DNA from: Defluviicoccus sp.
Lineage (GTDB): Bacteria > Pseudomonadota > Alphaproteobacteria > MPNO01
Length of the DNA stretch: 39,787 bases
NCBI GenBank assembly: GCA_028820505.1
Contig: JAPPIT010000036.1
Coordinates: 1-39,787 of the forward strand
Reading direction: 5' to 3'
The notes beneath the pieces were generated by a model. The model was not told the DNA's origin, searched no databases, and worked only from the letters and a program-made list of their open reading frames with translations. The position numbers and the translations under genes are program-made. Of this stretch, positions 6,489 to 33,895 are shown in pieces. How positions within the stretch are numbered: the first letter of the stretch is position 1; each line of letters opens with the position of its first letter.

Positions 6489-7589
6489 CTATAGGCAGTC
6501 GACATAGCGAACGGGATTTCCGGCAAATTTCTCAGTCCAGGCCGCCTCCAGGCCGGAGCCGGTACCGCCGATCCGCGCCCGCACCGCGTATTCGGTGATC
6601 TTGCCCGCATTCGCGGCCGATTTAGCGGGATATCCCAGCTTTCTGAGTTGCGCGACGCGACGTTCCGCGTTCTTTGCGCTCCGGTAAAGCCCCAGGGAGA
6701 TCCTATTGGCGCTCGTGCCGTTGGCGATAATCGCGACGTCCCGGATCCCGCGACCGCGGAGTTCGCGAAGCATCGCCTTGGCCGCCGCGGAATCCGAAGC
6801 GGCTGGCAGGTAGACCCGGTAGTTCCTCACCACCCGGCGTTCCTCGTGGCGGATTTCATGGAGTTCCGCGCCACGGGCCTGCAACCATTCCGCCGCCTCG
6901 CTCGCCGCCGCACGATCCTTGAAACGGCCCGCGTGCAGGCATCTCGGCGGGGAGGACAAAGCAGCGTCGGTCCTGGCCGACGGAATGGGTATTGGAGCCT
7001 TGCCGTCCGGGGCGACGAGCGCCAGCGGTCCCTCATTCGCTATCGCCGCCGCCGGCGGCGGTGCCTGGGCGGCGGGACACGGGGAACCCTCCGGGTCCCC
7101 GCAACCCGCAACGCCGGCCGTCGCGCCGATTCCGCCGCCGAGATCGCGAGCTCGCGCGTAGGCCCGATCCGCGAGCTTCATGTGGAGATCGCCGAGATTG
7201 GCGTATGCCACGGCGTCCGGTCGCCGTTCCAGCGCGGCGGCGAGGGACTCTCGGGCAGCATCGAGTCGGCCTTGCCCGGCGTAGAGCACCGCAAGATTGT
7301 TATGAGGCTCGAACATGTCGGGCCGATCGTGCCGGAGCTTTTCGAAGACGACGATCGCTTCGGCTGTTCTCCCGTCGCGAGCGCGCAGGATACCGTCGAT
7401 CAAGCGCAGGCGAGCCGCTTGCGGGTTGCGCTTCAGCAGCGGCTCCAATTCGCTGCGCGCTTCGGAATAGCGCCGCTCGGAGAGGAGAGACAGAACCCCG
7501 TCGATGGGCTCGTCGGCGGACAGGCCGGTCGCGTGCAAGAGCACGGCCAACGCCGCGAGTGCCAAAAGTTCTCGCCTACCTCGGGTCAT
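6489..7589 (-). CDS. Exported TPR and SPOR-like domain protein
   Basis: This 366-residue protein begins with a signal peptide (RRELLALAALAVLLHATGL, cleavage near residue 25). Tetratricopeptide-like helices follow at residues about 30-145 (PLLKRNPQAARLRLIDGIL, ALERRPDAVAYANLGDLHMK). After a proline/alanine linker, residues about 215-345 contain repeated SPOR-like segments (HAGRFKDRAAASEAAEWLQ and SLGLYRSAKNAERRVAQLRK), which in other proteins bind denuded peptidoglycan. This fits a periplasmic, cell-wall-associated protein. It is the last gene of a leftward run with the binding protein, Cache-HAMP and membrane protein genes. Family roles are known for the domains, but the function of this protein is not. 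Confidence 0.72.
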   Translation of the reverse strand: MTRGRRELLALAALAVLLHATGLSADEPIDGVLSLLSERRYSEARSELEPLLKRNPQAARLRLIDGILRARDGRTAEAIVVFEKLRHDRPDMFEPHNNLAVLYAGQGRLDAARESLAAALERRPDAVAYANLGDLHMKLADRAYARARDLGGGIGATAGVAGCGDPEGSPCPAAQAPPPAAAIANEGPLALVAPDGKAPIPIPSARTDAALSSPPRCLHAGRFKDRAAASEAAEWLQARGAELHEIRHEERRVVRNYRVYLPAASDSAAAKAMLRELRGRGIRDVAIIANGTSANRISLGLYRSAKNAERRVAQLRKLGYPAKSAANAGKITEYAVRARIGGTGSGLEAAWTEKFAGNPVRYVDCL

Positions 7590-7667: not shown

Positions 7668-8807
7668 TCACGCCTTGGCCCCGAACAGATGGTGCCGCAT
7701 CTCGGGATTGTCGCGTCGCCAGATCACGTTGTCGATAAAGTAGTGGTGAATGTTGATGAAAGTCCACGCGATAAAGAGGAAGACGGTCGTCCCGAATACC
7801 GCCCGATCGTAGACGTTCAGACCATTTGCCGCCATCGGCGCCAACCAAAATCCGGCGGCGCCGAGGATACCCCCGACGATAGCGAACCGTACCAGGGCGG
7901 CCCGGGCGCTTCGAAACCACGTCTTCCGGCGCATCCTTTCTCCGGCTTCGCTCCGGTCCGCCTGCTCGTTCATCCGGTAGCGCCATACCACGGCCATGTA
8001 TTGCAGGGAGTGGAAGAAAGGGACCACGAACAGCAGGAGGGGATCGAGACGCCCGGCCAGAAGCCAGACATAGACGGCGGCAACATAGGCAACCAGCCCG
8101 TTCACCGGCAGCGAATCTGCCGTCCTGCACCTTGTGGAGATGCGCCACCCGACGACTCCGGTGGAGACCGCAACCAGCGAAACCATCGGGATCAGCAGGG
8201 TGTCCGGAACGTCCAGCAGGTAATACTCGATGCCCCACAGGTTCTTCGAGCTGAGCGCGTCGTTCGCGACGAGCCACCAGGTGAACCAGGCCAGATGTGT
8301 ATTCCGGAGAAGCCATCGCCGCTCATGGAAATCGAAGCGAACACCGTTCCGGACCGAGTCCAGAATCAGGATTCCGTAGCCCTGCTTGGCATAGTGCCAG
8401 CCGACGGTAAAGAACATCACATTGGCCGCCAGCCCGAGAAGGGGCACGCTGCCCTTGGCGAGGGCGACCGAGAAGAAAACGGCAAGCATTGCCGGGATCA
8501 TGATCCCGGCGAACCGGTAGTGCGGTGCCAAGACCGATTCGCCGAACGCCTTCCGGAGGAAACCCCTGTAAAAGACTTGGTAAGAGTGCGCGAAGTGGGG
8601 GTGGTTCACGAAGTGAGCGAGGAATAACATCGTCCCCGCCAGCGCCGCCCGGGAGGCCGAATCGCGCGGGAAAAAGGCCGCCATTGCAGCCAATATGACG
8701 ACGCTCCCGCCTCCCAGTGTAAGAAAGTCGACCCACGGACCATTGAGGTAGTGCCGAGCGGTGCCGGTCCCGGCCCGCCCGGTGACGCGCGCTATGGCAG
8801 AAACCAT
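7668..8807 (-). CDS. Histidine-rich polytopic membrane protein of unknown function
   Basis: This 379-residue protein has about nine or ten hydrophobic segments, for example ALAGTMLFLAHFV, FAGIMIPAMLAVFFSVALA, LLIPMVSLVAVSTGVV and VFLFIAWTFINIHHYFI. Histidine clusters sit at the membrane ends: HFVNHPHFAHSYQVFY near residue 65, GWHYAKQGYG near 138, FHSLQYMAVVWRYR near 265, and NIHHYFIDNVIWRRDNPE near 355, followed by RHHLF at the C-terminus. Such clusters recall membrane-bound di-metal oxygenases and hydroxylases, but the spacing does not match the classical desaturase boxes, so no enzyme class can be assigned. The neighbours are the Cache-HAMP sensor upstream and the TPR-SPOR protein downstream, all leftward with gaps near 100 bases. 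Confidence 0.65.
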   Translation of the reverse strand: MVSAIARVTGRAGTGTARHYLNGPWVDFLTLGGGSVVILAAMAAFFPRDSASRAALAGTMLFLAHFVNHPHFAHSYQVFYRGFLRKAFGESVLAPHYRFAGIMIPAMLAVFFSVALAKGSVPLLGLAANVMFFTVGWHYAKQGYGILILDSVRNGVRFDFHERRWLLRNTHLAWFTWWLVANDALSSKNLWGIEYYLLDVPDTLLIPMVSLVAVSTGVVGWRISTRCRTADSLPVNGLVAYVAAVYVWLLAGRLDPLLLFVVPFFHSLQYMAVVWRYRMNEQADRSEAGERMRRKTWFRSARAALVRFAIVGGILGAAGFWLAPMAANGLNVYDRAVFGTTVFLFIAWTFINIHHYFIDNVIWRRDNPEMRHHLFGAKA

Positions 8808-16222: not shown

Positions 16223-17233
16223 TCAATTCGGTGCTTTCGCGGGCGATGCGTCGCCCGGCCTCGCGGCGGACGCCCCACCCTCCGGCGGACCCGCGGCTTC
16301 GTCTCCGAACGTCACCTCCGATAACTTGTCGCCGCGGATGATGCGCACGGTCCTGCGGGGCGCCAGCACCGCGTCGCTTGTTTCCGGCGGCGGTGTCGCG
16401 GCCGGCGCGACGGTTTCGGCGGGCTCGTCGATCTCCGGCAGGTCGAGCAGGTCGCGAAGATCGACCGCTGCCGCGGGGCTCGGCCGCGTGGCCGCCGCGG
16501 CGAGCGGCCGCACCACGAGCGACAGCGTGCCCTCATGTTCGCCGAGCGCGAGCAGCCGGGCTTGGGCGGGCGAGACCTCGAGCGTCGCAGTGACGATCTT
16601 GGCGCGCTTCGCCTCCTTGCCGCCCGGCGCCGGCTGGGCGCCGCCATCCACCTGCCGGTCGACCGCGACCACGCGCACGTCCTGAAGGATGGTGCGGGTG
16701 AACACGCTTTCCGCGCGCCCCCCGAGGCGCAACTTGGCGGTCAGGATCACGTCCACCCGGTCGCCTGGATCGACGAGGCCGGCATGGCTGGTCCCGGCGC
16801 TGAGCTGGATCGTCGCGGCGCGGGTCCCGGCCCCGAGCACGGCGGCGAGAAAACCCCTCTGTCCTGGACCGACGACGGCGAACCGGGTGAGAGGCGCATC
16901 GGCGGCGACGGGCTCGCGCACGGCAAAGCCGCGCAGCGCGTCGATCGTCTTGGCGCCCTCCATGACGACGTGAGCGCGCCGAACCCCGCTAGAAGCGATG
17001 TCGAGGGCGGTCAGATCCTCTTCGCGGATCAGCGTGCCGATTTGCAGATACCGGGCGGCGGCGACGACCTTGCGCGTCTGCGCCTTCTTCACGGGTTTGG
17101 GGGCGGGCTGCGACTTTGCCAGGACAGGTTTGGCGGAGGTGCCCGGCAAGAAGTAACGGGCTGCGACGACGGCGCCGCCCGCCGGCACCGCGATCAGCAG
17201 CACCAGTATGATCAGGGTGCGATATCTATACAT
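16223..17233 (-). CDS. cpaB: Flp pilus assembly protein CpaB/RcpC
   Basis: This 336-residue protein has an N-terminal membrane anchor (LIILVLLIAVPAGGAVVAAR) followed by an SAF domain (VVAAARYLQIGTLIREEDLT) and an RcpC/CpaB domain (ATIQLSAGTSHAGLVDPGDRVDVILT), ending in a low-complexity alanine/proline tail. CpaB is a periplasmic part of the Tad pilus apparatus that works with the secretin. The signature RTILQDVRVVAVDRQ is typical of the family. A GGGAG site precedes the ATG. The gene follows cpaA by about 90 bases and its end touches the start region of the unknown 643-residue protein, so the three form an operon. Confidence 0.93.
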   Translation of the reverse strand: MYRYRTLIILVLLIAVPAGGAVVAARYFLPGTSAKPVLAKSQPAPKPVKKAQTRKVVAAARYLQIGTLIREEDLTALDIASSGVRRAHVVMEGAKTIDALRGFAVREPVAADAPLTRFAVVGPGQRGFLAAVLGAGTRAATIQLSAGTSHAGLVDPGDRVDVILTAKLRLGGRAESVFTRTILQDVRVVAVDRQVDGGAQPAPGGKEAKRAKIVTATLEVSPAQARLLALGEHEGTLSLVVRPLAAAATRPSPAAAVDLRDLLDLPEIDEPAETVAPAATPPPETSDAVLAPRRTVRIIRGDKLSEVTFGDEAAGPPEGGASAARPGDASPAKAPN

Positions 17234-17320
17234 CGGTTTCTCCCGGCGGCCCGGCGGCGCGTCGGGCTGGCAAGTGGGCGGCGGGGCGGCGCGACGCCCC
17301 GGAGTCCGGACCGCGGACCG

Positions 17321-17803
17321 TCATGAGACGGGCTGGACCTGAAAGGAGAGAGCGCGCGGGATCATCACGGCCAGCGCGGGTGGCACGATCGCGACGGCGA
17401 AGGGAAGTTCCGGGCGCATGCGCCGGGCGGCCTCGAAGGGCAACAGGGCGACGGCCGAGAGCGCGAACGCGCAGGCGCCGAGGCCGAGCAGGAACACGGC
17501 CAGATCGGAAGGCCCCACCCACAACCCGGCGGCCGCGATCAGCTTGGCATCGCCCGCGCCGAACCTGCCGGTGGAATAGAGCGCGAATCCGGCAGCGAGC
17601 AGCACGGCGCCGATCGCCAGATGGGCCAACGGCGAAGCGGCGCGCTCGCCCGATCCGGCGGCGACATGGACCGCAAAGAGCGCGAGCAGCGCGAGCGGAA
17701 TGGCGTTGGGCACCGTGCGGCTGCGGAGATCGGTCACCGCGCCCGCGGCGAACAGCGCGCAGGCGGCAGAGGCGGCGGCCCAGGCGATCCACGAACTCTC
17801 CAT
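17321..17803 (-). CDS. cpaA: Prepilin peptidase CpaA/TadV
   Basis: This 160-residue integral membrane aspartic protease processes Flp-type pilins and pseudopilins. The two catalytic aspartates are D25 in AVTDLRSRTVPN and D85 in GRFGAGDAKLIAAAGLW. About six hydrophobic segments fit the A24 family, and it lacks the N-methyltransferase domain of long type IV peptidases, as expected for TadV. The start ATG 17803 has a strong GGAGGAAA site; the frame is open further upstream but without a comparable site. It lies between the split sensor pair and cpaB in one leftward operon. Its likely substrates are an unseen Flp pilin and possibly the TadE-like protein at 22012. Confidence 0.92.
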   Translation of the reverse strand: MESSWIAWAAASAACALFAAGAVTDLRSRTVPNAIPLALLALFAVHVAAGSGERAASPLAHLAIGAVLLAAGFALYSTGRFGAGDAKLIAAAGLWVGPSDLAVFLLGLGACAFALSAVALLPFEAARRMRPELPFAVAIVPPALAVMIPRALSFQVQPVS

Positions 17804-17849
17804 CGGTTTCCTCCTCTCGGCCGCTGCCGCGCGGCGTACCGCTTCCCGG

Positions 17850-19082
17850 TTACCGCGCGTGCGCGCTGCCGACCGGGCGGGGATCGCGAATCCGGTTGCA
17901 GAGATGCCCCAGCCGATAAACCGCATCGCCAAGGCGGACGATCTCGCGCGGAGTCTCGACCGGGGCCATGCGCACGGGCTCTCCCCGGGCGGAGCGCTCG
18001 GCCAGCTCCGTCAGCGCATCGAGCGCCGCCGCGTAGCGTCCGGCCACCGCACCGGCGAGGACGGCGGCGAAGGCCGCGCTCAATATCCCTATCGAGAGGA
18101 GTGCCAGTACGAGTCGGACGCGCCAGTCGCCGAGCGCGTCCTCGATGCCGGCAAACACCGCGGCCCGGTCGGGTATCATGGCGGCGAATTCCCGCAGAAC
18201 GGCCTCGGCGGGACCGAGCCGGTCGACCGCGGAGGCGAAGGATTCGCCGAACCCGTCGCCCTGGCCGCCCAGGCCGGCGCGCACGGCGAGGCCGGTCGGA
18301 CCGTTCCCCTCGGCGCTCGCATTCACGATGCGCGCGCCGCCTGAAGGCATATTCTCGATGTGTCCGCCCGGGACGGCCGGCGTCGCGCGAACCGCGAAAG
18401 TCCCGATGGGATCTGTCGCGAGCACGGTCTTCAGCACGCCCAGCGGCGCGCCGCCGTCCGGATCCGCGATGCGCACCGAGAGCGCGAGCGGGCGGAGCCC
18501 CGCCGGGCCGTCGCGTTCGATTGCGGCGACGGAGATCCCGTCCGCCCATGCGCCTTGCCAACCGGCCTCGCCGGACCGGGAGATGCCGCTTGCCGACCCC
18601 GTCGCCGCCACGTCGAAGCCGTTCCGGTCGGTGAAGGAGATTTCCGTGAGCCAGGGCGAGGCCGCCATCTGCCGCCGGAGAAAGGACTCGGCTTCCCGCG
18701 ATGGGTCCGCGGCGCCGGCGATCCGGGGCCAGGCCCGGAGATCGCTCGCCGAAGCCTCGCCGAACCGTTGCGAGGGTGGTGCCATCCTGGCCGCCCTGGC
18801 GGCCTCGACGACGGCGGGAGTCGAGGCCCATGTCCTCGCCTCGGCGATGCGGACGACGAGGACCGCATCGATCCGGCTCGCCGCCACCGTCGCACGCGCG
18901 GCCGCATCCGTGCGGGCCATGTCCTGGCCGAGCATGACGGCCGCGAGCCCGCCGGTGAGCAGGACCGGCAGAGCGACCGCGAGCAGGGCCCTCGTCACGA
19001 GCTGGCGCCGCAGGCCGGTGCCGCGGCGGTGCCGCGAAGGCCGCGGACCGCTCCCGGGACTCCCGAGGGTGCCGGCGTTCAT
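17850..19082 (-). CDS. Membrane sensor (extracytoplasmic sensing region plus HAMP-like end), partner of the adjacent kinase
   Basis: This 410-residue protein has a transmembrane segment near residue 30 (LVTRALLAVALPVLLTGGLA), an extracytoplasmic sensing region with Cache-like features (ASPWLTEISFTDRNGFDVAA, LALSVRIADPDGGAPLG), a second transmembrane segment (VRLVLALLSIGILSAAFAAV) and a short HAMP-like tail (DALTELAERSARGEP). No catalytic output domain is present. Its ATG overlaps the stop of the histidine kinase gene (ATGA at 19082-19079), so the two are made together. This looks like a sensor kinase divided into a soluble kinase and a membrane sensor. The position upstream of cpaA suggests control of pilus formation. 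The assignment of the sensing fold is moderate. Confidence 0.72.
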   Translation of the reverse strand: MNAGTLGSPGSGPRPSRHRRGTGLRRQLVTRALLAVALPVLLTGGLAAVMLGQDMARTDAAARATVAASRIDAVLVVRIAEARTWASTPAVVEAARAARMAPPSQRFGEASASDLRAWPRIAGAADPSREAESFLRRQMAASPWLTEISFTDRNGFDVAATGSASGISRSGEAGWQGAWADGISVAAIERDGPAGLRPLALSVRIADPDGGAPLGVLKTVLATDPIGTFAVRATPAVPGGHIENMPSGGARIVNASAEGNGPTGLAVRAGLGGQGDGFGESFASAVDRLGPAEAVLREFAAMIPDRAAVFAGIEDALGDWRVRLVLALLSIGILSAAFAAVLAGAVAGRYAAALDALTELAERSARGEPVRMAPVETPREIVRLGDAVYRLGHLCNRIRDPRPVGSAHAR

Positions 19083-19933
19083 GGGGCGGAGATCCCGGCG
19101 GGCAGGGTGATGCGCGCCACCGTTCCCTGGCCCGGCAGGGAGTTGATCTTGATGACGCCTTCGTACTTGCGGACCAGGTGGCCCGCGAGCGCGAGACCGA
19201 TGCCCATCGACCCGTTGCGCGAGGTGTAGAACGGCTTGAAGATGTTGGTCCGCTGTTCCGGCGCGATCCCGGCCCCGTTGTCGATCACGGTGATCAGGAT
19301 CTCGTCGTCCTTCCGCGCGGTGTCGATCTTGACCAGGCCCTTCCGGTCTTCGAGGTCGCGCACGGCAACGATCGAGTTCTCGATGAGCTCGCCCAAGAGC
19401 ATCTCGAACTCGGTTCTCGATGCGAATATCTCGGGAACGTCGCCGAAATTCCGCACCACCGGCGTGCCGTCGGCCACGGCCTCGATCGCGTTCTCGATGC
19501 AGGCGTTGAGGTCGATCATGCTGCGATCGACATGGTTGGTGGGCGCGCTCGCGAAGCCCTCGAGACGCCGCGCGAGATCGGCGATGGCGTTCATTCTCTG
19601 GCGCACGTTGAGCGCCAGCGCCGAGATCGATTCGATCTCCTCGTCCAAATCGACCCCGTCGGCGAGTCCGTTGACCCCGTCGGCGTTCTCGAACGCCTCG
19701 CGCAGGCGCTGCTGGGTGCGGCGCAGGAAGTCCATGCGCCCGGAGACCTCCTCCGCGGAGGCGGCGAGGATTCCGGCGAGCGACTTGACCACGAAACCCT
19801 GCAGCAGCGCCGTCCCGGCGCCGGCACGATCCGGCGGGCCGGCCGCCGCGGGAGGGGCGGCGGCCGCGGGCACCGGCGCGCCGGTTTCCGAGGCGCGCTC
19901 GACGGCCGCCATGCCGGTCTCCGCCGCTTCCAT
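19079..19933 (-). CDS. Soluble histidine kinase-like protein, unclear phosphoacceptor
   Basis: This protein of about 284 residues has no membrane segment and ends in a typical HATPase domain: N box ELIENSIVAV near residue 181, G1 box VIDNGAGI near 219, F box FKPFYTS near 233, and G2 box MGIGLALAGHLVRKY near 244. The expected dimerisation and phosphoacceptor helix (SALALNVRQRMNAIADLARR) has asparagine where the H box histidine would be expected; the only nearby histidine is in APTNHVDRS. The kinase may therefore be degenerate or use another site. ATG 19912 has a better ribosome binding site (GGAG) and may be the real start. It is translationally coupled to the sensor gene downstream. No response regulator is in the window. 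Confidence 0.78.
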   Translation of the reverse strand: MEAAETGMAAVERASETGAPVPAAAAPPAAAGPPDRAGAGTALLQGFVVKSLAGILAASAEEVSGRMDFLRRTQQRLREAFENADGVNGLADGVDLDEEIESISALALNVRQRMNAIADLARRLEGFASAPTNHVDRSMIDLNACIENAIEAVADGTPVVRNFGDVPEIFASRTEFEMLLGELIENSIVAVRDLEDRKGLVKIDTARKDDEILITVIDNGAGIAPEQRTNIFKPFYTSRNGSMGIGLALAGHLVRKYEGVIKINSLPGQGTVARITLPAGISAP

Positions 19934-19947
19934 CGCAACGCCGGCCC

Positions 19948-20229
19948 CTGCAGGCAGCCGCGCGCGCCGACGATGCCCCCGCGGCAAGAGCGGAGGCGCT
20001 TCTCGGCGCCGGACGGACAGCGCTCGCCGCGGGCAGGCCGGATGCCGCGCGACCGCATTTCCGCAACGCGTACGAAGCCGGACCGGACCTGCCGTCGGCG
20101 CCGTGGGCGGCGAACGGCCTCGCCGTCGTCGCCACCGTCGACGGCGACTACGAATCCGCCGAGGCGCGCTACCGCGAAGCCCTCCGGCTCTCGTCTGGAC
20201 ATCCCCGCATATCGGCGAATTTTCTGCGC
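19948..20229 (+). other. TadD-like TPR coding stretch in frame with the secretin gene, no ATG/GTG/TTG start
   Basis: Upstream of the secretin's first ATG the same frame continues and reads as a tetratricopeptide protein: AEALLGAGRTALAAGRPDAA, AVVATVDGDYESAEARYREA and LRLSSGHPRISANFLRML. This resembles TadD, the TPR lipoprotein of Tad systems. The frame is open back to about 19789, but the only start-like codon before the TPR is CTG 19948, and no signal peptide is seen. The 5' end abuts or overlaps the start of the divergent kinase gene. Either an unusual start is used, or the 5' end was lost or frameshifted. Confidence 0.6.
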
Positions 20230-21807
20230 ATGCTGATCGCGGCCGGAATGGTCGAGAGCGCCGCCGAAATCCACGCGCAGCACGACCCGTCCTACTGGCT
20301 CGACGGCGACGGCGCCGCGCTGTCCCGCCTGATAGAGGCGGCGCGCAGGGAGGGGCGCGGAGGAGCCGCGGCGCGCGGGCCCGCATCGGACCTTGTCCTG
20401 CGGCTGTCGGCGTCCGGCGCCGATACCGTTCGCGTGCAGAGGTTCGACCCGCCCGTATCCTCCGCCCTGGTTCTCCGAATCGGCGAGGCGTCGTCGGCCG
20501 GAAGCCGACCGTCGGGGGAACCCGGTTCCGTACCGGTCGCGGGACAGCCCCGAACGGACCCCGAACCCGCCGCACCGGCCGCGCCGCCGGGCGAACGGGC
20601 GGCGCCGAAGGCGCTCACCCTGACCCTTGGGCACAGCCGCCGACTCGCCCTTGGCGGCGATGCGTCGTCGGTGCTGGTCGCGGCGCCGGAGATCGCGGAC
20701 GTCCAGCTCCTGTCCCCGACGGTGCTCTACATCGTCGGCAAGGCGGTGGGCCGGACCTCGGTCGCCATTCTCGGCGCGCAGGGAACGGTTCGCGACTGGA
20801 CCGTCTCGGTCGTCCTGGATCTGGAGCCCATCCGCGAAATCCTCGCGAAGGAGCCGGAGTTGAGCGGGGTTCGGGCAAGGCGCGTCGCGCGCGGGATAGC
20901 GCTGACCGGCGAGGTGGCCTCCGCCGCGCTTGCCGAGCGGGCGCTCCGGCTCGCCGCCGGGGCGCTGCCCAAGGACATGCCGGTGGAGAACGAATTGCGG
21001 GTGTCCGGCGCGCAGCAGGTGAACCTGGAAGTGCAGATCGCCGAGGTCCAGCGCTCCGTCACGGAGAATCTCGGGGTGAACTGGGAGGCCTTTCGGATCC
21101 GCGGCAACGACTTGATCGGTTTCCGCATCGGGCGGTTATTGCCACTACCGGTACCGGGCTGGCCCTTCCCGCCGGCGATCGTCGACGGTGAAGTATCGCC
21201 GGGCTTGTCCTTCGACTCGGGGCCGTCGAGGACCCGGGTCGCCGGGATGATCGACGCGCTTTCGAGAGCGGGGCTCGCGAACGTTCTGGCCCGGCCCAAC
21301 GTGACCGCGGTATCGGGGGAGGCGGCGTCCTTCTTCTCCGGCGGCGAATACCCCTTGCCGACGGGGTTCGACGACGGGGTCATCGTGTTCGAGTACAAGA
21401 AGTACGGGATCCTGCTCGACTTCGTCCCGACGGTGATAGACACCGGCCGGATCGTGCTGAAGGTCCGCCCCGAGGTGTCGGAACCTTCCCTGAACCAGGC
21501 CGTCCGGGTGGTCGGCGTCGATATCCCCGTCATCAACGTCCGCCGCGCCGAGACGACGGTCGAGGTCGGAGACGGGGAATCGATCGTGATCGCGGGACTG
21601 TTCCGCAATGCGTCGGACACCCGCGAGGCGGGGGTGCCCGGCCTCAAGGACATTCCCGGGCTGGGGATCTTGTTCGGGAGTCGCTCGGTGCAGTCCGAAG
21701 AACTCGAGCTGATCGTGATCGTCACCGCGCGCCTGGTGACCGCCAATGCGCGAGAGACGGAGGCCGAGGCGCCGCCCCCGCCGAGGCTGGGCGGCTATTA
21801 CTATTGA
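20230..21807 (+). CDS. cpaC: Tad/Flp pilus secretin CpaC/RcpA with TPR-like N-terminal extension
   Basis: This 525-residue frame starts at ATG 20230, though the coding signal extends upstream (see 19948-20229). Residues about 130-205 form the secretin N-terminal domain (SRRLALGGDASSVLVAAPEI, VLYIVGKAVGRTSVAILG), followed by a BON-like part (RVARGIALTGEVASAALAER) and the secretin domain from about 280 (VNLEVQIAEVQRSVTENLGV, VLARPNVTAVSGEAASFFSG, ESIVIAGLFRN, GVPGLKDIPGLGILFGSR). The secretin forms the outer-membrane pore of the Tad pilus. The region before residue 130 is the end of a TPR and a proline-rich linker, unlike ordinary CpaC, which starts with a signal peptide. It runs divergently from the kinase-cpaAB operon. 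Confidence 0.9.
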   Translation: MLIAAGMVESAAEIHAQHDPSYWLDGDGAALSRLIEAARREGRGGAAARGPASDLVLRLSASGADTVRVQRFDPPVSSALVLRIGEASSAGSRPSGEPGSVPVAGQPRTDPEPAAPAAPPGERAAPKALTLTLGHSRRLALGGDASSVLVAAPEIADVQLLSPTVLYIVGKAVGRTSVAILGAQGTVRDWTVSVVLDLEPIREILAKEPELSGVRARRVARGIALTGEVASAALAERALRLAAGALPKDMPVENELRVSGAQQVNLEVQIAEVQRSVTENLGVNWEAFRIRGNDLIGFRIGRLLPLPVPGWPFPPAIVDGEVSPGLSFDSGPSRTRVAGMIDALSRAGLANVLARPNVTAVSGEAASFFSGGEYPLPTGFDDGVIVFEYKKYGILLDFVPTVIDTGRIVLKVRPEVSEPSLNQAVRVVGVDIPVINVRRAETTVEVGDGESIVIAGLFRNASDTREAGVPGLKDIPGLGILFGSRSVQSEELELIVIVTARLVTANARETEAEAPPPPRLGGYYY

Positions 21808-29599: not shown

Positions 29600-29659
29600 C
29601 GATCATAAAAACTAATACCATTTTCTATGAGAATTCATTAGTTTTACTTATAATGATCG
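29600..29659. promoter_or_regulatory. Nested inverted repeats and promoter between LysR and aldolase genes
   Basis: An outer inverted repeat CGATCAT (29600-29606) / ATGATCG (29653-29659) surrounds an inner one AAAACTAAT (29608-29616) / ATTAGTTTT (29637-29645), with a 20-base centre. A perfect -10 box TATAAT lies at 29649-29654 for rightward transcription, with only a poor -35 box, as expected for an activator-dependent promoter. The rest of 29466-29755 shows no gene. Confidence 0.6.
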
Positions 29660-29755
29660 GACCGGGAGCGGGGCGCGGCGGCTCGCGCGGCGGCGCCCGC
29701 CGTGGTAAGACCGCCGCCGGGTATCGGTTCGAGGCCAGCCAGGAGGGGTGCCGGG

Positions 29756-30472
29756 ATGAGCGATGTTCTGCAGGCGATGCGCGACGTGGTGGTCGCCAAC
29801 CGCATACTGGCGCGCGAAGGGGTGGTCGACGCCTACGGCCACGTCACCGTGCGCCACCCGGACAATCCGGAACGTTACCTGATGTCGTGCTCGCGCGCGC
29901 CGGAGCTGGTCACGCTCGACGACATCATGGAGTTCACCCTCGAAGGCGAGCCGGTGGACGACTCGGGCCGGGTGCCCTACGCCGAGCGCTTCATCCACGG
30001 CGCCATCTACGAGAAGCGGCCCGACGTCAACTCGGTGGTCCACAACCACTCGCACGCGGTCATCCCCTTCGGGGTGACCGGGGTGAAGCTGCGTCCGGTC
30101 ATCCATGTCGGAGCCTCGATCGGCGCGGACATCCCAGTCTGGGACATCCGCGACCGGTTCGGCGACACCAACCTGCTGGTGGTCGACATGGAGCAGGGGC
30201 GCGACCTCGCGGACTGCCTCGGGCCCAACCGGGTGGCGCTGATGCGGGGTCACGGCTGCGCGGTGGCGGGGGTCTCGCACCAGCAGTCGACGATGACCTC
30301 GGTCTATCTCCAGGTCGCCGCCGAGCTGCAGGCCCAGGCCATGCGGATGGGCGAGGTCACCTATCTGTCGGACGCCGAGATCGAGCACTGCTCCGCTACC
30401 TTCACCAGCGAGATATCGGTCAACCGGGCGTGGCAGTATCTCCGCCACCGCGCCGGGGTGAGCGACCTCTAG
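29756..30472 (+). CDS. Class II aldolase/adducin-family protein
   Basis: This 238-residue protein is a zinc-dependent class II aldolase of the fuculose-phosphate aldolase type. The zinc ligands are in VVHNHSHAVIPFG (two histidines) and in MRGHGCAVAG. Earlier signatures are VVDAYGHVTVRHP and a family-type YLMSCSRAPELVTLDDIMEF. The start is ATG 29756 with AGGAGG nine bases ahead. The stop is nine bases before the TPP-enzyme gene, so the three genes are one operon. In such operons the aldolase-like protein may act as a decarboxylase or aldolase on a hydroxy acid. The exact reaction is unknown. Confidence 0.9.
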   Translation: MSDVLQAMRDVVVANRILAREGVVDAYGHVTVRHPDNPERYLMSCSRAPELVTLDDIMEFTLEGEPVDDSGRVPYAERFIHGAIYEKRPDVNSVVHNHSHAVIPFGVTGVKLRPVIHVGASIGADIPVWDIRDRFGDTNLLVVDMEQGRDLADCLGPNRVALMRGHGCAVAGVSHQQSTMTSVYLQVAAELQAQAMRMGEVTYLSDAEIEHCSATFTSEISVNRAWQYLRHRAGVSDL

Positions 30473-30481
30473 GGGGCCGGG

Positions 30482-31000
30482 ATGGCGGGTCCCGACCGCG
30501 AAATCGCCGCCGCCATCGCCGAGCGGGTGGCGGGCGCGGGCATCGAGCTGGTCGCCAGCCTGCCCGACGGCTGGATCGCCGCGCTGATCGAGGAGTTCGA
30601 GGCCGATGCGCGGTTCGACCACATCCCGGTCAACCGCGAGGAGTCGGCGGTCGGGCTGTGCTCGGGCGCCTTCTTCGGCGGCCGGGGCTCGCTCGCCCTG
30701 ATGGGCGCGTCCGGGCTGATGACCTGCATCTACGCGATCACCAAGATCAACTACACCTACATGGTGCCGATGACGATCTTCATCACCATGCGGGGGCGGC
30801 TCGGCGACCGCGCCAAGTTCCACGTCTCGAACGGGCTCTATCTCGAGCCGGTCATGCAATCGATCGACCTCCCCTACACGGTGATCGACCGCCGCGACGG
30901 GCTGGACGAGATCGGCCGCGCGGTGGCCCATTCGCGGACCATCTCGCGCCCCGTCGTGGTCGGCTTCACGCGCGACCTGCTCTACGGGGAGAGCGGCTGA
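30482..31000 (+). CDS. TPP-dependent decarboxylase, alpha (PYR) subunit, second copy
   Basis: This 172-residue protein is the pyrimidine-binding half of a split thiamine-diphosphate enzyme, related to but diverged from the gene at 2584. The likely catalytic glutamate lies in VNREESAVGLCSGAFFGG, followed by LALMGASGLMTCIYAITKIN. It starts nine bases after the aldolase stop and overlaps the next gene by one base (TGATG at 30998-31002). The heteromer would decarboxylate an alpha-keto acid. Compared with the first pair, the active-site neighbourhood differs (MGASGLM against MQQTGLM), so another substrate is likely. Confidence 0.85.
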   Translation: MAGPDREIAAAIAERVAGAGIELVASLPDGWIAALIEEFEADARFDHIPVNREESAVGLCSGAFFGGRGSLALMGASGLMTCIYAITKINYTYMVPMTIFITMRGRLGDRAKFHVSNGLYLEPVMQSIDLPYTVIDRRDGLDEIGRAVAHSRTISRPVVVGFTRDLLYGESG

Positions 31001-31602
31001 TGGCGATGGCGATGGAGGCCTGCTTCGCCCACCTGGTCGAGCGCTGGACCGATCAGGTGGTCGTCACCTCGGCCGGCAACGCGTCCGAGATGTGGTGGAA
31101 GCTCACCGGCGAGACCGAGAGGGTGTTCTACCTCGAAGCCTCGATGAGCCTCGCCTCGCTGTTCGCCGCCGGCATCGCCTACGGCATCCCCAGGGCCAAT
31201 GTCTGGGCGTTCTCGGGCGACGGGGCGTTCCTGATGAACCCCGGCATGCTGACGGTGGAGCGCCGGCTGGGGCTTCCCAACCTGACCCACTTCCTGGTCG
31301 ATAACGGGGTCTACGGCGCCACCTTCGAGGTCGGGATGTCGGACGCGGGCGAGACCGACTACGCCGCGCTGGCGCGGGCCTGCGGGCTCAGGAACGTGTT
31401 CCGGTTCGGCACGCTCGCAGACCTCCGCGACGGCATGGACGAGGTCGAGCGGGTCAACGGCGAGGCGTTCGCGGTGCTCGAGGTCGAGCCGCTCGGCGGC
31501 GCGCTCCCCGACCCGCCGATGGACGGCCCCGAATGCAAGTTCCGCTTCGGCCGCTATCTCGAGCGCACCTACGGCGTGAGGATCTTCGACGCGCGGGTCT
31601 GA
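31000..31602 (+). CDS. TPP-dependent decarboxylase, beta (PP) subunit, second copy
   Basis: This 200-residue protein has the thiamine-diphosphate motif GDG in FSGDGAFLMNPGMLTVE and the matching asparagine in VDNGVYGATF. The N-terminal segment reads MEACFAHLVERWTDQVVVTS. The ATG shares a base with the upstream stop. It is the last gene of the LysR-controlled operon; two hairpins and the parS sites follow. Heteromer partner is the preceding gene. Substrate not known. Confidence 0.85.
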   Translation: MAMAMEACFAHLVERWTDQVVVTSAGNASEMWWKLTGETERVFYLEASMSLASLFAAGIAYGIPRANVWAFSGDGAFLMNPGMLTVERRLGLPNLTHFLVDNGVYGATFEVGMSDAGETDYAALARACGLRNVFRFGTLADLRDGMDEVERVNGEAFAVLEVEPLGGALPDPPMDGPECKFRFGRYLERTYGVRIFDARV

Positions 31603-31613
31603 GGCCGGCCTAA

Positions 31614-31629
31614 TGTTTCACGTGAAACA
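31614..31629. other. parS chromosome/replicon partition site 1
   Basis: TGTTTCACGTGAAACA is a perfect 16-base palindrome identical to the conserved parS sequence bound by ParB. It lies 11 bases after the stop of the TPP beta gene. No parA or parB gene is in the window. Confidence 0.93.
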
Positions 31630-31687
31630 AAGGTCAACCTTGCTGCCTTATCCTTTACATGAAGAAATGGCGCCAAACCGGCAAAAA

Positions 31688-31703
31688 TGTTTCACGTGAA
31701 ATA
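31688..31703. other. parS chromosome/replicon partition site 2
   Basis: TGTTTCACGTGAAATA differs from the consensus at one outer position and keeps the 12-base core palindrome TTTCACGTGAAA. It begins exactly 74 bases after the first site, about seven helical turns, so both sites face the same side of the DNA. Confidence 0.9.
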
Positions 31704-31722
31704 TAGTCCCGAAACGGGACTA
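31704..31722. terminator. Hairpin after the TPP operon
   Basis: TAGTCCCG and CGGGACTA form a perfect 8-base stem with loop AAA. It touches the second parS site. A T-rich stretch follows only partly (AATTT), so termination efficiency is uncertain. Confidence 0.5.
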
Positions 31723-31726
31723 ATTT

Positions 31727-31745
31727 CGCGTCCCCCGGGGACGCG
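31727..31745. terminator. Second GC-rich hairpin before the AAA operon
   Basis: CGCGTCCCC and GGGGACGCG are a perfect inverted repeat around one central base, which would fold into a very stable stem. With the preceding hairpin it probably insulates the TPP operon from the AAA gene. The remaining bases up to 31822 hold the AAA promoter; no clear boxes were seen. Confidence 0.45.
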
Positions 31746-31822
31746 GATGGGCCTCGATACGACCGGATCTGACGCATCGAGAGCGTAGGCTCTCTCCCTC
31801 GACCCGCCGATGGAGAGACCCG

Positions 31823-33895
31823 ATGCTCAACGCGTACCAGCGCCGCCTCCTGTTGTCCTATATCGCCAACGCGGCCGAACGGCTCGTCCGACGCCACCCT
31901 GTGGCCCTGGAACTGGTGATCTGGGTCGTCGAGCACGCCGGCCATCTGGGCATCAAGCCCGACCGCGACGCGCCCCGGCGCCGGCCCCGGCGCCGGTGGG
32001 AGCCACCGGACGACGGACCCGGCCTCACGAAAAAGGTCTGGGCCGGCTTCCGGGAGGCGCTGCGCGACGGGATACGGTCCGCCGGAAACCCGGGTCCCGA
32101 TCTCACCGCGCGAAGGCTCCGCCGCCTCGCCGACATCGCTCCCGTACGCGACACCGATATCCGCATCCTCGAATGCCTGCTCCTCTACGAGACGAGCCGG
32201 CTCGCCGAATCGTTGATCGACGACGTCTTCCGGGGGGTGCAGCGCCGGGGCCAGTTCAATGTCGGCCACTCGCCGCTGCCCTACGTCCTGGACTTGTCTC
32301 CGCAGGCCGCCGTCGCGCGGCTGGGGCCCGACGCGCCGCTCGTGCGTTCGGGCCTCGTCGCGATCGACGAGGACGGGGACCTGTCGGTCGCAAGGCGCCT
32401 GATCCGTCTGGCCTCGGTTCCCGGCAAGAAGCGGGACATCAGGGACCTGCTGCTCGGCAAGCCGGGCAGGGCGGAGTTGGAGTGGTCGGATTTCGACCAC
32501 CTCGCGGCGGACCGCGACCACGCCGTGACCCTGCTCGAGGGGGCGCTGCGGGCGCCGGAAAAGGGGGTCAACATCCTCTTCCACGGACCGCCGGGGACGG
32601 GAAAGACCCAGTTCTGCCGGACGCTGGCCGACAAGCTGGGCGTGCCGCTCTTCGATGTCGGGGAGCGGGACGAGCGCGGCGGCGAGCCCGACCGCGCGCA
32701 ACGGCTCGGCGACCTCACCCTCGCGCACACCCTGCTGGCGGGCGACCGGAACGCGCTGGTTCTCTTCGACGAGACGGTGGACCTGCTCCCCGGCAACGAC
32801 CTGTCGTTCCTGTTCGGCGGGTTCGGGCGAAGAACCGTGTCCGGCGGATCGAAGCTGTTCATGAACCGGCTGCTGGAGAACGCCCCGGTGCCGACGCTCT
32901 GGACCGCCAATACCAGCGACCGCGTCCCCGAGGCGTTCCTGCGCCGCATGAAGTTCGCGCTGGAGCTGCGCCTGCCGCCGCCCCGCATCCGGGCGCGGAT
33001 CTGGTCGCGGCAGCTCGCCCGCAACGGTATCGAGGCGGGGCCCGACGACGCGCTCTCGCTCGCGCGGGACTTCGAGGCGCCGCCGGGCGTGGCGGCGGAG
33101 GTCGCCGCGGCGGCCCGGCTGACCGGCGGCGACATGGTGTCGGTGCGCCGGGGGCTGCGCGGGCTCACCCGCGCGCTCTCCCGCGACCGGCCGGTCCAGC
33201 GCGCGCCGGCCTCGTTCGACCTCTCGCTGATCCGCTCCGACACCGACCCCGCCGGGCTCGCGGAACGGCTGGAGGCGCGCGGCGAACGGGGATTCTCGGT
33301 TTGCCTGCAAGGGCCGCCGGGGACGGGAAAGAGCGCCTGGGTCCGGCATCTGGCCGACCGGCTGGGGCTGGAGGTGATGCAGAAACGGGCCTCCGACCTG
33401 CTCTCGCCCTGGGTGGGAGGGACCGAGGCGAACATCGCCGCCGCCTTCCGCGAGGCGCGCGACAATGAGGCGTTCCTGATCTTCGACGAGGCGGAGTCGC
33501 TGCTCGCCGACCGGCGCCATGCGGAGCGCAACTGGGAGGTCAGCCAGACCAACGAGATGCTGACCTGGATGGAGAGCCACCCGCTTCCCTTCGCCTGCAC
33601 GACGAACTTCGCCGACCGCCTCGATCCCGCGACGCTGCGCCGTTTCGTCTTCAAGATCGCGCTCGGCTACCTCGCGCGCGAACAGGCGGAGGCGGCTTTC
33701 CGGACTTTCTTCGACCTCGAAGCGCCGCCTTCTGTCGCCGACCTCGCGAACCTGACGCCGGGGGATTTCGCGACGGTGCGGCGAAAGGCGGACATCCTCG
33801 GCTGCCTCGCGGAGCCGGAGACGCTCGCCGGCATGCTGAAGGAGGAATGCGAGGCCAAGCCCGGGCACCGGCGCCCGATCGGGTTTCGGGCGTGA
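31823..33895 (+). CDS. Tandem AAA-family ATPase
   Basis: This 690-residue protein has an N-terminal helical region (residues 1-230) of unknown type followed by two AAA modules. The first Walker A is GPPGTGKT at residues 255-262 with Walker B VLFDE (D316, E317). The second is GPPGTGKS at 497-504 with LIFDE (D555, E556), and DPATLRRF near 597 carries candidate arginine fingers. The second module resembles cell-division/protease type AAA domains that remodel proteins. GGAGAG precedes the ATG by five bases. It is the first gene of a rightward cluster with a WYL regulator, a metallo-hydrolase, a nuclease-like protein and a Fic protein. The role is unknown; an ATP-driven remodeller in a defence or stress system is one possibility. 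Confidence 0.85.
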   Translation: MLNAYQRRLLLSYIANAAERLVRRHPVALELVIWVVEHAGHLGIKPDRDAPRRRPRRRWEPPDDGPGLTKKVWAGFREALRDGIRSAGNPGPDLTARRLRRLADIAPVRDTDIRILECLLLYETSRLAESLIDDVFRGVQRRGQFNVGHSPLPYVLDLSPQAAVARLGPDAPLVRSGLVAIDEDGDLSVARRLIRLASVPGKKRDIRDLLLGKPGRAELEWSDFDHLAADRDHAVTLLEGALRAPEKGVNILFHGPPGTGKTQFCRTLADKLGVPLFDVGERDERGGEPDRAQRLGDLTLAHTLLAGDRNALVLFDETVDLLPGNDLSFLFGGFGRRTVSGGSKLFMNRLLENAPVPTLWTANTSDRVPEAFLRRMKFALELRLPPPRIRARIWSRQLARNGIEAGPDDALSLARDFEAPPGVAAEVAAAARLTGGDMVSVRRGLRGLTRALSRDRPVQRAPASFDLSLIRSDTDPAGLAERLEARGERGFSVCLQGPPGTGKSAWVRHLADRLGLEVMQKRASDLLSPWVGGTEANIAAAFREARDNEAFLIFDEAESLLADRRHAERNWEVSQTNEMLTWMESHPLPFACTTNFADRLDPATLRRFVFKIALGYLAREQAEAAFRTFFDLEAPPSVADLANLTPGDFATVRRKADILGCLAEPETLAGMLKEECEAKPGHRRPIGFRA

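Follow-up and report, generated by a model that had tools for sequence, protein, structure and literature searches.

Twin parS sites in a Defluviicoccus-labelled genome as a probable copy of a dispersed intergenic repeat carrying ParB-loading sites

What does a closely spaced pair of parS sites signify when it is located between two metabolic or ATPase-type genes on a contig without any match to ParB or RepC? ParB-CTP loads at parS and then slides or spreads from there. As a working rule, parS is found near the replication origin, because ParA and ParB must pull the origins apart first, and misplaced parS sites disturb segregation in experiments with Caulobacter and Pseudomonas. The usual chromosome harbors 1 to about 20 parS sites, the vast majority within the 20% around oriC (PMC7022226; PMC5815017), and parS normally lies within the ori domain (PMC7022226). 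For Caulobacter, fitness drops when an additional parS is placed at a distance from the native cluster, and tolerance is mainly limited to sites within ~500 kb of it (PMC5815017).

The window, i.e. the whole stretch of 39,787 nucleotides (39.8 kb) analysed here, corresponds to contig C45. This contig belongs to a draft genome of 5.49 Mb in 228 contigs, which was examined by stretches and pattern searches. The label Defluviicoccus sp. was taken from the records, not from a phylogeny built here. The locus comprises the following features:

29653 to 31602, plus strand: upstream ORF with a TPP_enzyme_C domain, from its predicted start
31614 to 31629, no strand: parS unit 1, exact TGTTTCACGTGAAACA, 11 bp past the stop codon of the upstream gene
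31630 to 31650, plus strand: 21-bp spacer of the 37-bp unit, window copy AAGGTCAACCTTGCTGCCTTA
31651 to 31666, no strand: decayed parS unit 2, TCCTTTACATGAAGAA, 10/16 matches, in +37 register
31688 to 31703, no strand: parS unit 3, TGTTTCACGTGAAATA, one mismatch, in +74 register
31704 to 31722, plus strand: hairpin TAGTCCCGAAACGGGACTA followed by AATTTC, where the family tail has a terminator-like hairpin
31728 to 31744, no strand: element-tail palindrome GCGTCCCCCGGGGACGC
31823 to 33895, plus strand: downstream AAA ATPase ORF

The twin sites described in the initial annotation are present as stated, with 0 mismatches at 31614-31629 and 1 outer mismatch at 31688-31703, and their start-to-start distance is indeed 74 bp. 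No other position in the window matches parS at up to 3 mismatches. Dinucleotide-shuffled versions of the window contain 0.03 matches on average and never 2, so that a chance pairing, already considered very unlikely, was rejected. The 90 bases taken for the intergenic space are in fact the span of the pair; the gap itself measures 220 bp (31603-31822), between the TPP-enzyme ORF, which stops at 31602, and the AAA ORF, which starts at 31823. The distance of 74 bp corresponds to two 37-bp units, and a decayed third unit is located exactly 37 bp from either site, which makes the window copy a partly decayed three-unit array. Elsewhere in the window, Flp/tad pilus genes occupy 16226-21804, including RcpC/CpaB (16226-17233, minus strand) and a secretin (20230-21804, plus strand).

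In accordance with the observation that ParB is missing from the window, the only strong HTH_ParB match of the genome (108.8 bits) is found on another contig, C112. The gene order there is mnmG (gidA), gidB with an internal parS (reading NVSRET), parA and parB, of which mnmG and parA were assigned by eye on the basis of their sequence and the order of the genes. Three parS sites form an array on this contig, at 6670, 6707 and 6744. This ParB, encoded at L051:10101-10991, is closest to Caulobacter ParB (6T1F/7BM8, E=1e-65), and the alignment places R and G at the equivalents of positions 173 and 201. R173 and G201 contact parS; they are invariant in ParB, and Q and R occupy these positions in Noc (PMC7383237). 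Furthermore, the parS word of the window is identical to the sites beside gidA-gidB-parA-parB, and the native array and the dispersed copies have in common a 37-bp unit with a like spacer type. The window sites are therefore supported as candidate parS of the chromosomal type. The genome also encodes SMC.

The genome-wide parS map proposed in the initial annotation yielded 52 exact sites, or 63 when up to 2 mismatches are allowed, which form 36 clusters spread over 27 contigs; the reversed-sequence control gave 0. Four sampled MAGs of the same genus contain 22, 23, 35 and 35 exact sites, and a genome from another genus of the same family contains 2, one of them inside gidB. Among 289 genomes of the class (>=90% complete), 0-3 exact sites are typical, and the sole count above that of our genome is 78 (G237), followed by 18 and 13. 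The array also occurs in named relatives, MAGs from sponges under the label Defluviicoccus sp.; they include bin129, whose sponge origin is presumed, in part from PMC5649159. In the open-access full-text literature, no report of a dispersed parS repeat family was found.

Two further occurrences were noted in the surveyed genomes. Contigs labelled Vicinamibacteria (JAJEEA), at loci L075 and L090, bear the parS element and are probably misbinned pieces of the Defluviicoccus-labelled genus. G237, a member of the class outside the family, measures 1.8 Mb, and its GC content is about 0.5-0.55 in the stretches that were inspected. Its 78 exact parS form tandem arrays that occupy 11 contigs or more (L199-L203; contigs C1-C12); the spacers are unrelated, and variants in decay occur, for instance TGTTTCTCGTGAAACA. 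It apparently represents an independent expansion.

Most parS sites of the genome belong to a small dispersed element with 1-3 parS at 37-bp spacing and a hairpin-rich tail, and the pair in the window is one of about 36 copies. The element consists of CTAA or CTGA, parS, a 21-bp spacer, a second parS in most copies, a hairpin with an AT-rich run, the palindrome CGTCCCCSGGGGACG, and a tail differing by subtype. The family consensus of the spacer, AAGGTCARNNNNNYTGACCTW, forms an inverted repeat AGGTCA-N7-TGACCT. Copies align rightwards from parS over ~110-290 bp with about 73-91% identity, and the right ends vary by subtype; to the left of parS no consistent similarity exists among copies and the border is sharp. 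Unit 2 of the ‘type B’ copies has decayed, but position +37 is still the best residual parS match, with a mean of 7.6/16 matches versus a background of 3.5 (sd 0.95). The window copy resembles this type but has retained unit 3. Site identity, copy number and the unit in common with the native array are all read from sequence. The twin sites probably belong to a family of dispersed intergenic repeats whose genuine chromosomal parS would function in the loading of ParB. Lone parS sites without the tail were also seen at gene 3′ ends (L058:6468-6483, L049:7907-7922), and the CTAA..TTAG flanks of the palindrome can provide stop codons on both strands.

For an unbiased view on sequence conservation, elements were collected by the tail palindrome CGTCCCCSGGGGACG and not by parS. 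Its 15-bp core has 20 exact copies in the genome, each of them (20/20) with a parS within 160 bp; 18 of these sites are exact and 2 have one mismatch, so that 318 of 320 letters agree with the consensus. This collection is the strongest evidence that the letters of parS themselves are kept. In 11 two-site copies, pairwise identity amounts to 0.99 for the first and 0.96 for the second parS, while the spacer reaches 0.84, the tail 0.65 and the 20 bp outside 0.41. Orthologous copies have identical letters at 565 of 572 parS positions versus 3760 of 4375 positions within 100 bp, a comparison that overstates the constraint because loci were chosen for holding an exact parS. Taken at the sequence level, these patterns point to strong constraint on parS alone. 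A one-mismatch parS within a predicted coding gene was observed at the same place in two species (L046:1472, own genome, TGTTGCACGTGAAACA; L133:8524).

A less probable, though plausible, alternative is that the elements are transcription terminators or REP/BIME-like palindromes in which parS matters as an RNA hairpin and ParB is irrelevant. Read as RNA, a typical two-site copy forms three hairpins, of which the first is long and the second precedes AUUUUU, with a strong fold of -61 kcal/mol (z=-10.7), and the window copy has a z-score of -6.1 and a hairpin followed by AAUUUC. The elements are also located behind genes and oriented with the upstream gene, as expected under this explanation. However, hairpins tolerate compensatory change, yet the letters of parS are near-fixed while the spacer stem and the other hairpins vary, and the invariant word is the exact site used beside parAB. 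A search of 31300-32000 against Rfam gave no match. The two roles are compatible, and an element could plausibly act both as terminator and as parS.

The comparison with related species bears on a second alternative, in which a neutral or selfish MITE-like repeat captured the native parS array and spreads without function. Copies diverge like those of old repeats from a sharp left border at parS, and presence or absence differs by species, both as such a repeat would have it. Many copies are found at orthologous places across species with proteins 82-93% identical, and others come and go; at the sequence level, many copies are inherited vertically and others turn over. In one orthologous pair (L063/L113), the difference looks like exactly one array unit. 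The window copy is among the variable ones and occurs only in this species among those sampled: orthologues of the TPP gene in four same-genus genomes have 92-94% DNA identity, but none of the four (0/4) has parS behind it. Downstream of the TPP gene each of these relatives has a different sequence, and the AAA ORF that adjoins the gene in this species is not at that place in the others. A clean empty site was sought for the window copy and discarded, since only the left flank is common to the relatives; the copy lies at a synteny breakpoint, where insertion and rearrangement look alike. Against a repeat without function stand the near invariance of parS as the remainder decays and the retention of the many orthologous copies, and by eye no target-site duplication was seen at element copies. 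We consider this explanation improbable.

The placement of the elements relative to genes was counted in four genomes with a codon-usage gene caller written for this analysis. Of the 60 oriented copies, 47 have a gene on their parS side that is directed at the element; this gene usually ends 0-50 bp away, its stop codon sometimes lying inside the parS flank. Co-directional settings prevail by 22 to 2 in the four genomes and by 7 to 1 in our genome alone; all these counts are approximate because of the home-made caller and the pooling of orthologous copies. That another DNA-binding regulator uses the palindrome as its operator, with a regulon of about 36 units, is very improbable in the light of these positions at gene 3′ ends and not at promoters. 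The twin palindromes at fixed spacing do look operator-like and several copies precede antitoxin genes; however, the parAB-linked sites have the very same word, and the one strong ParB of the genome belongs to the type that reads parS. An operator of an aromatic-catabolism regulon, first suggested by FAH-like (by eye), TPP and ring-hydroxylase neighbours, was dropped because of the location of parS at gene 3′ ends and the unit in common with the par locus.

Antitoxin-like genes were observed behind element tails at L043:6703-6996, L048:6384-6662, L049:12283-12858, L065:3222-3707 and L113:9410-9631. They represent five families (RHH/DUF6290, HI1420-type, DUF433, HicB and MazE-like), and the tails in front of them end in inverted repeats resembling autoregulatory operators. 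A toxin-antitoxin cassette as the possible vehicle of the element was kept as a lead; the HI1420 family has only two copies in the genome, one of them adjoining an element.

The distribution over the genome was compared with 20,000 dispersal simulations for which lengths were sampled for 40 contigs; every genome used is a draft MAG, and this test may be distorted where assemblies break at repeats. Judged by the number of contigs hit, the placement of the 36 clusters over 27 contigs is near uniform (P=0.07). The summed length of hit contigs is slightly below the uniform prediction, and mild clustering is possible given P=0.04. The nine hit contigs longer than 69 kb carry 11 clusters. Uniform placement predicts 12.0, a restriction to one third of the genome 19.8 (P=0.003) and a restriction to 20% 28.8 (0 of 20,000 simulations). 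Statistically, the clusters fit genome-wide dispersal and confinement to one third is rejected. Three RepC (PF03428) homologues (C135:27988-28425, C135:33212-33724, C212:956-1477) indicate that the assembly contains DNA of a repABC-type replicon, to which nothing links contig C45; C135 additionally carries one of the dispersed parS elements (at 89017), and HTH_ParB matches it weakly at 7669. The least probable reading is that of the initial annotation, i.e. twin sites as a mark of the origin region or of a ParB-segregated plasmid or chromid, which could draw on the usual origin-proximal location of parS (PMC7022226; PMC5815017) and on the repABC replicon but is not supported in view of the near-uniform spread and the rejected confinement to 20% or one third, with the native array on a different contig and flanking genes such as that of the TPP enzyme common to the genus without parS.

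If the twin sites belong to a repeat with functional parS, ParB-CTP would load at the dispersed sites as at the native ones and, as a consequence, ParB and possibly SMC would be loaded at dozens of places rather than at the origin only. The repeat would spread the loading sites between genes, selection on parS would keep them, and siting behind genes in the direction of transcription would limit damage to promoters. Dozens of working sites would need an adapted ParB, ParA and SMC, given the fitness cost of extra parS in Caulobacter.

Several known systems resemble parts of this arrangement. The chromosomal parABS systems of Caulobacter, Bacillus and Pseudomonas have in common with it the site TGTTTCACGTGAAACA, the array by gidB-parA-parB and the parS-type residues of ParB, whereas here 22-52 exact sites per genome are dispersed within a repeat element. 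Many parS per chromosome are also known from Streptomyces coelicolor and Listeria innocua, with 22 sites near the origin (PMC5815017); theirs are clustered at the origin, in contrast to the contig statistics found here. In Pseudomonas aeruginosa, ParB binds half-parS (GTTTCAC/GTTCCAC) genome-wide (PMC7022226, PMC10419367), and by analogy the ParB of our organism could make contacts at many positions beyond the ori domain, although the sites here are complete 16-bp palindromes that form 37-bp arrays and are embedded in a conserved element. Repeats of the REP/BIME, ERIC and MITE type are likewise short, palindrome-rich and dispersed in many copies at gene ends, but the element described here has the host centromere site as its most conserved part.

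Our best reading of the sequences is that twin parS at this locus would signal membership of a dispersed parS repeat family and not proximity to the origin. A further and more tentative possibility is a polycentric ParB landscape, in which repeat-planted working parS load ParB and perhaps SMC chromosome-wide and serve a nucleoid-organising role beyond origin segregation; if it is true, G237, which belongs to a different family, would be an independent case. A genus with dozens of dispersed and constrained parS would either break the origin rule or reveal how the tuning of ParB, ParA and SMC allows many loading sites to be tolerated or used, and the repeat element would offer a concrete route for the multiplication of centromere sites.
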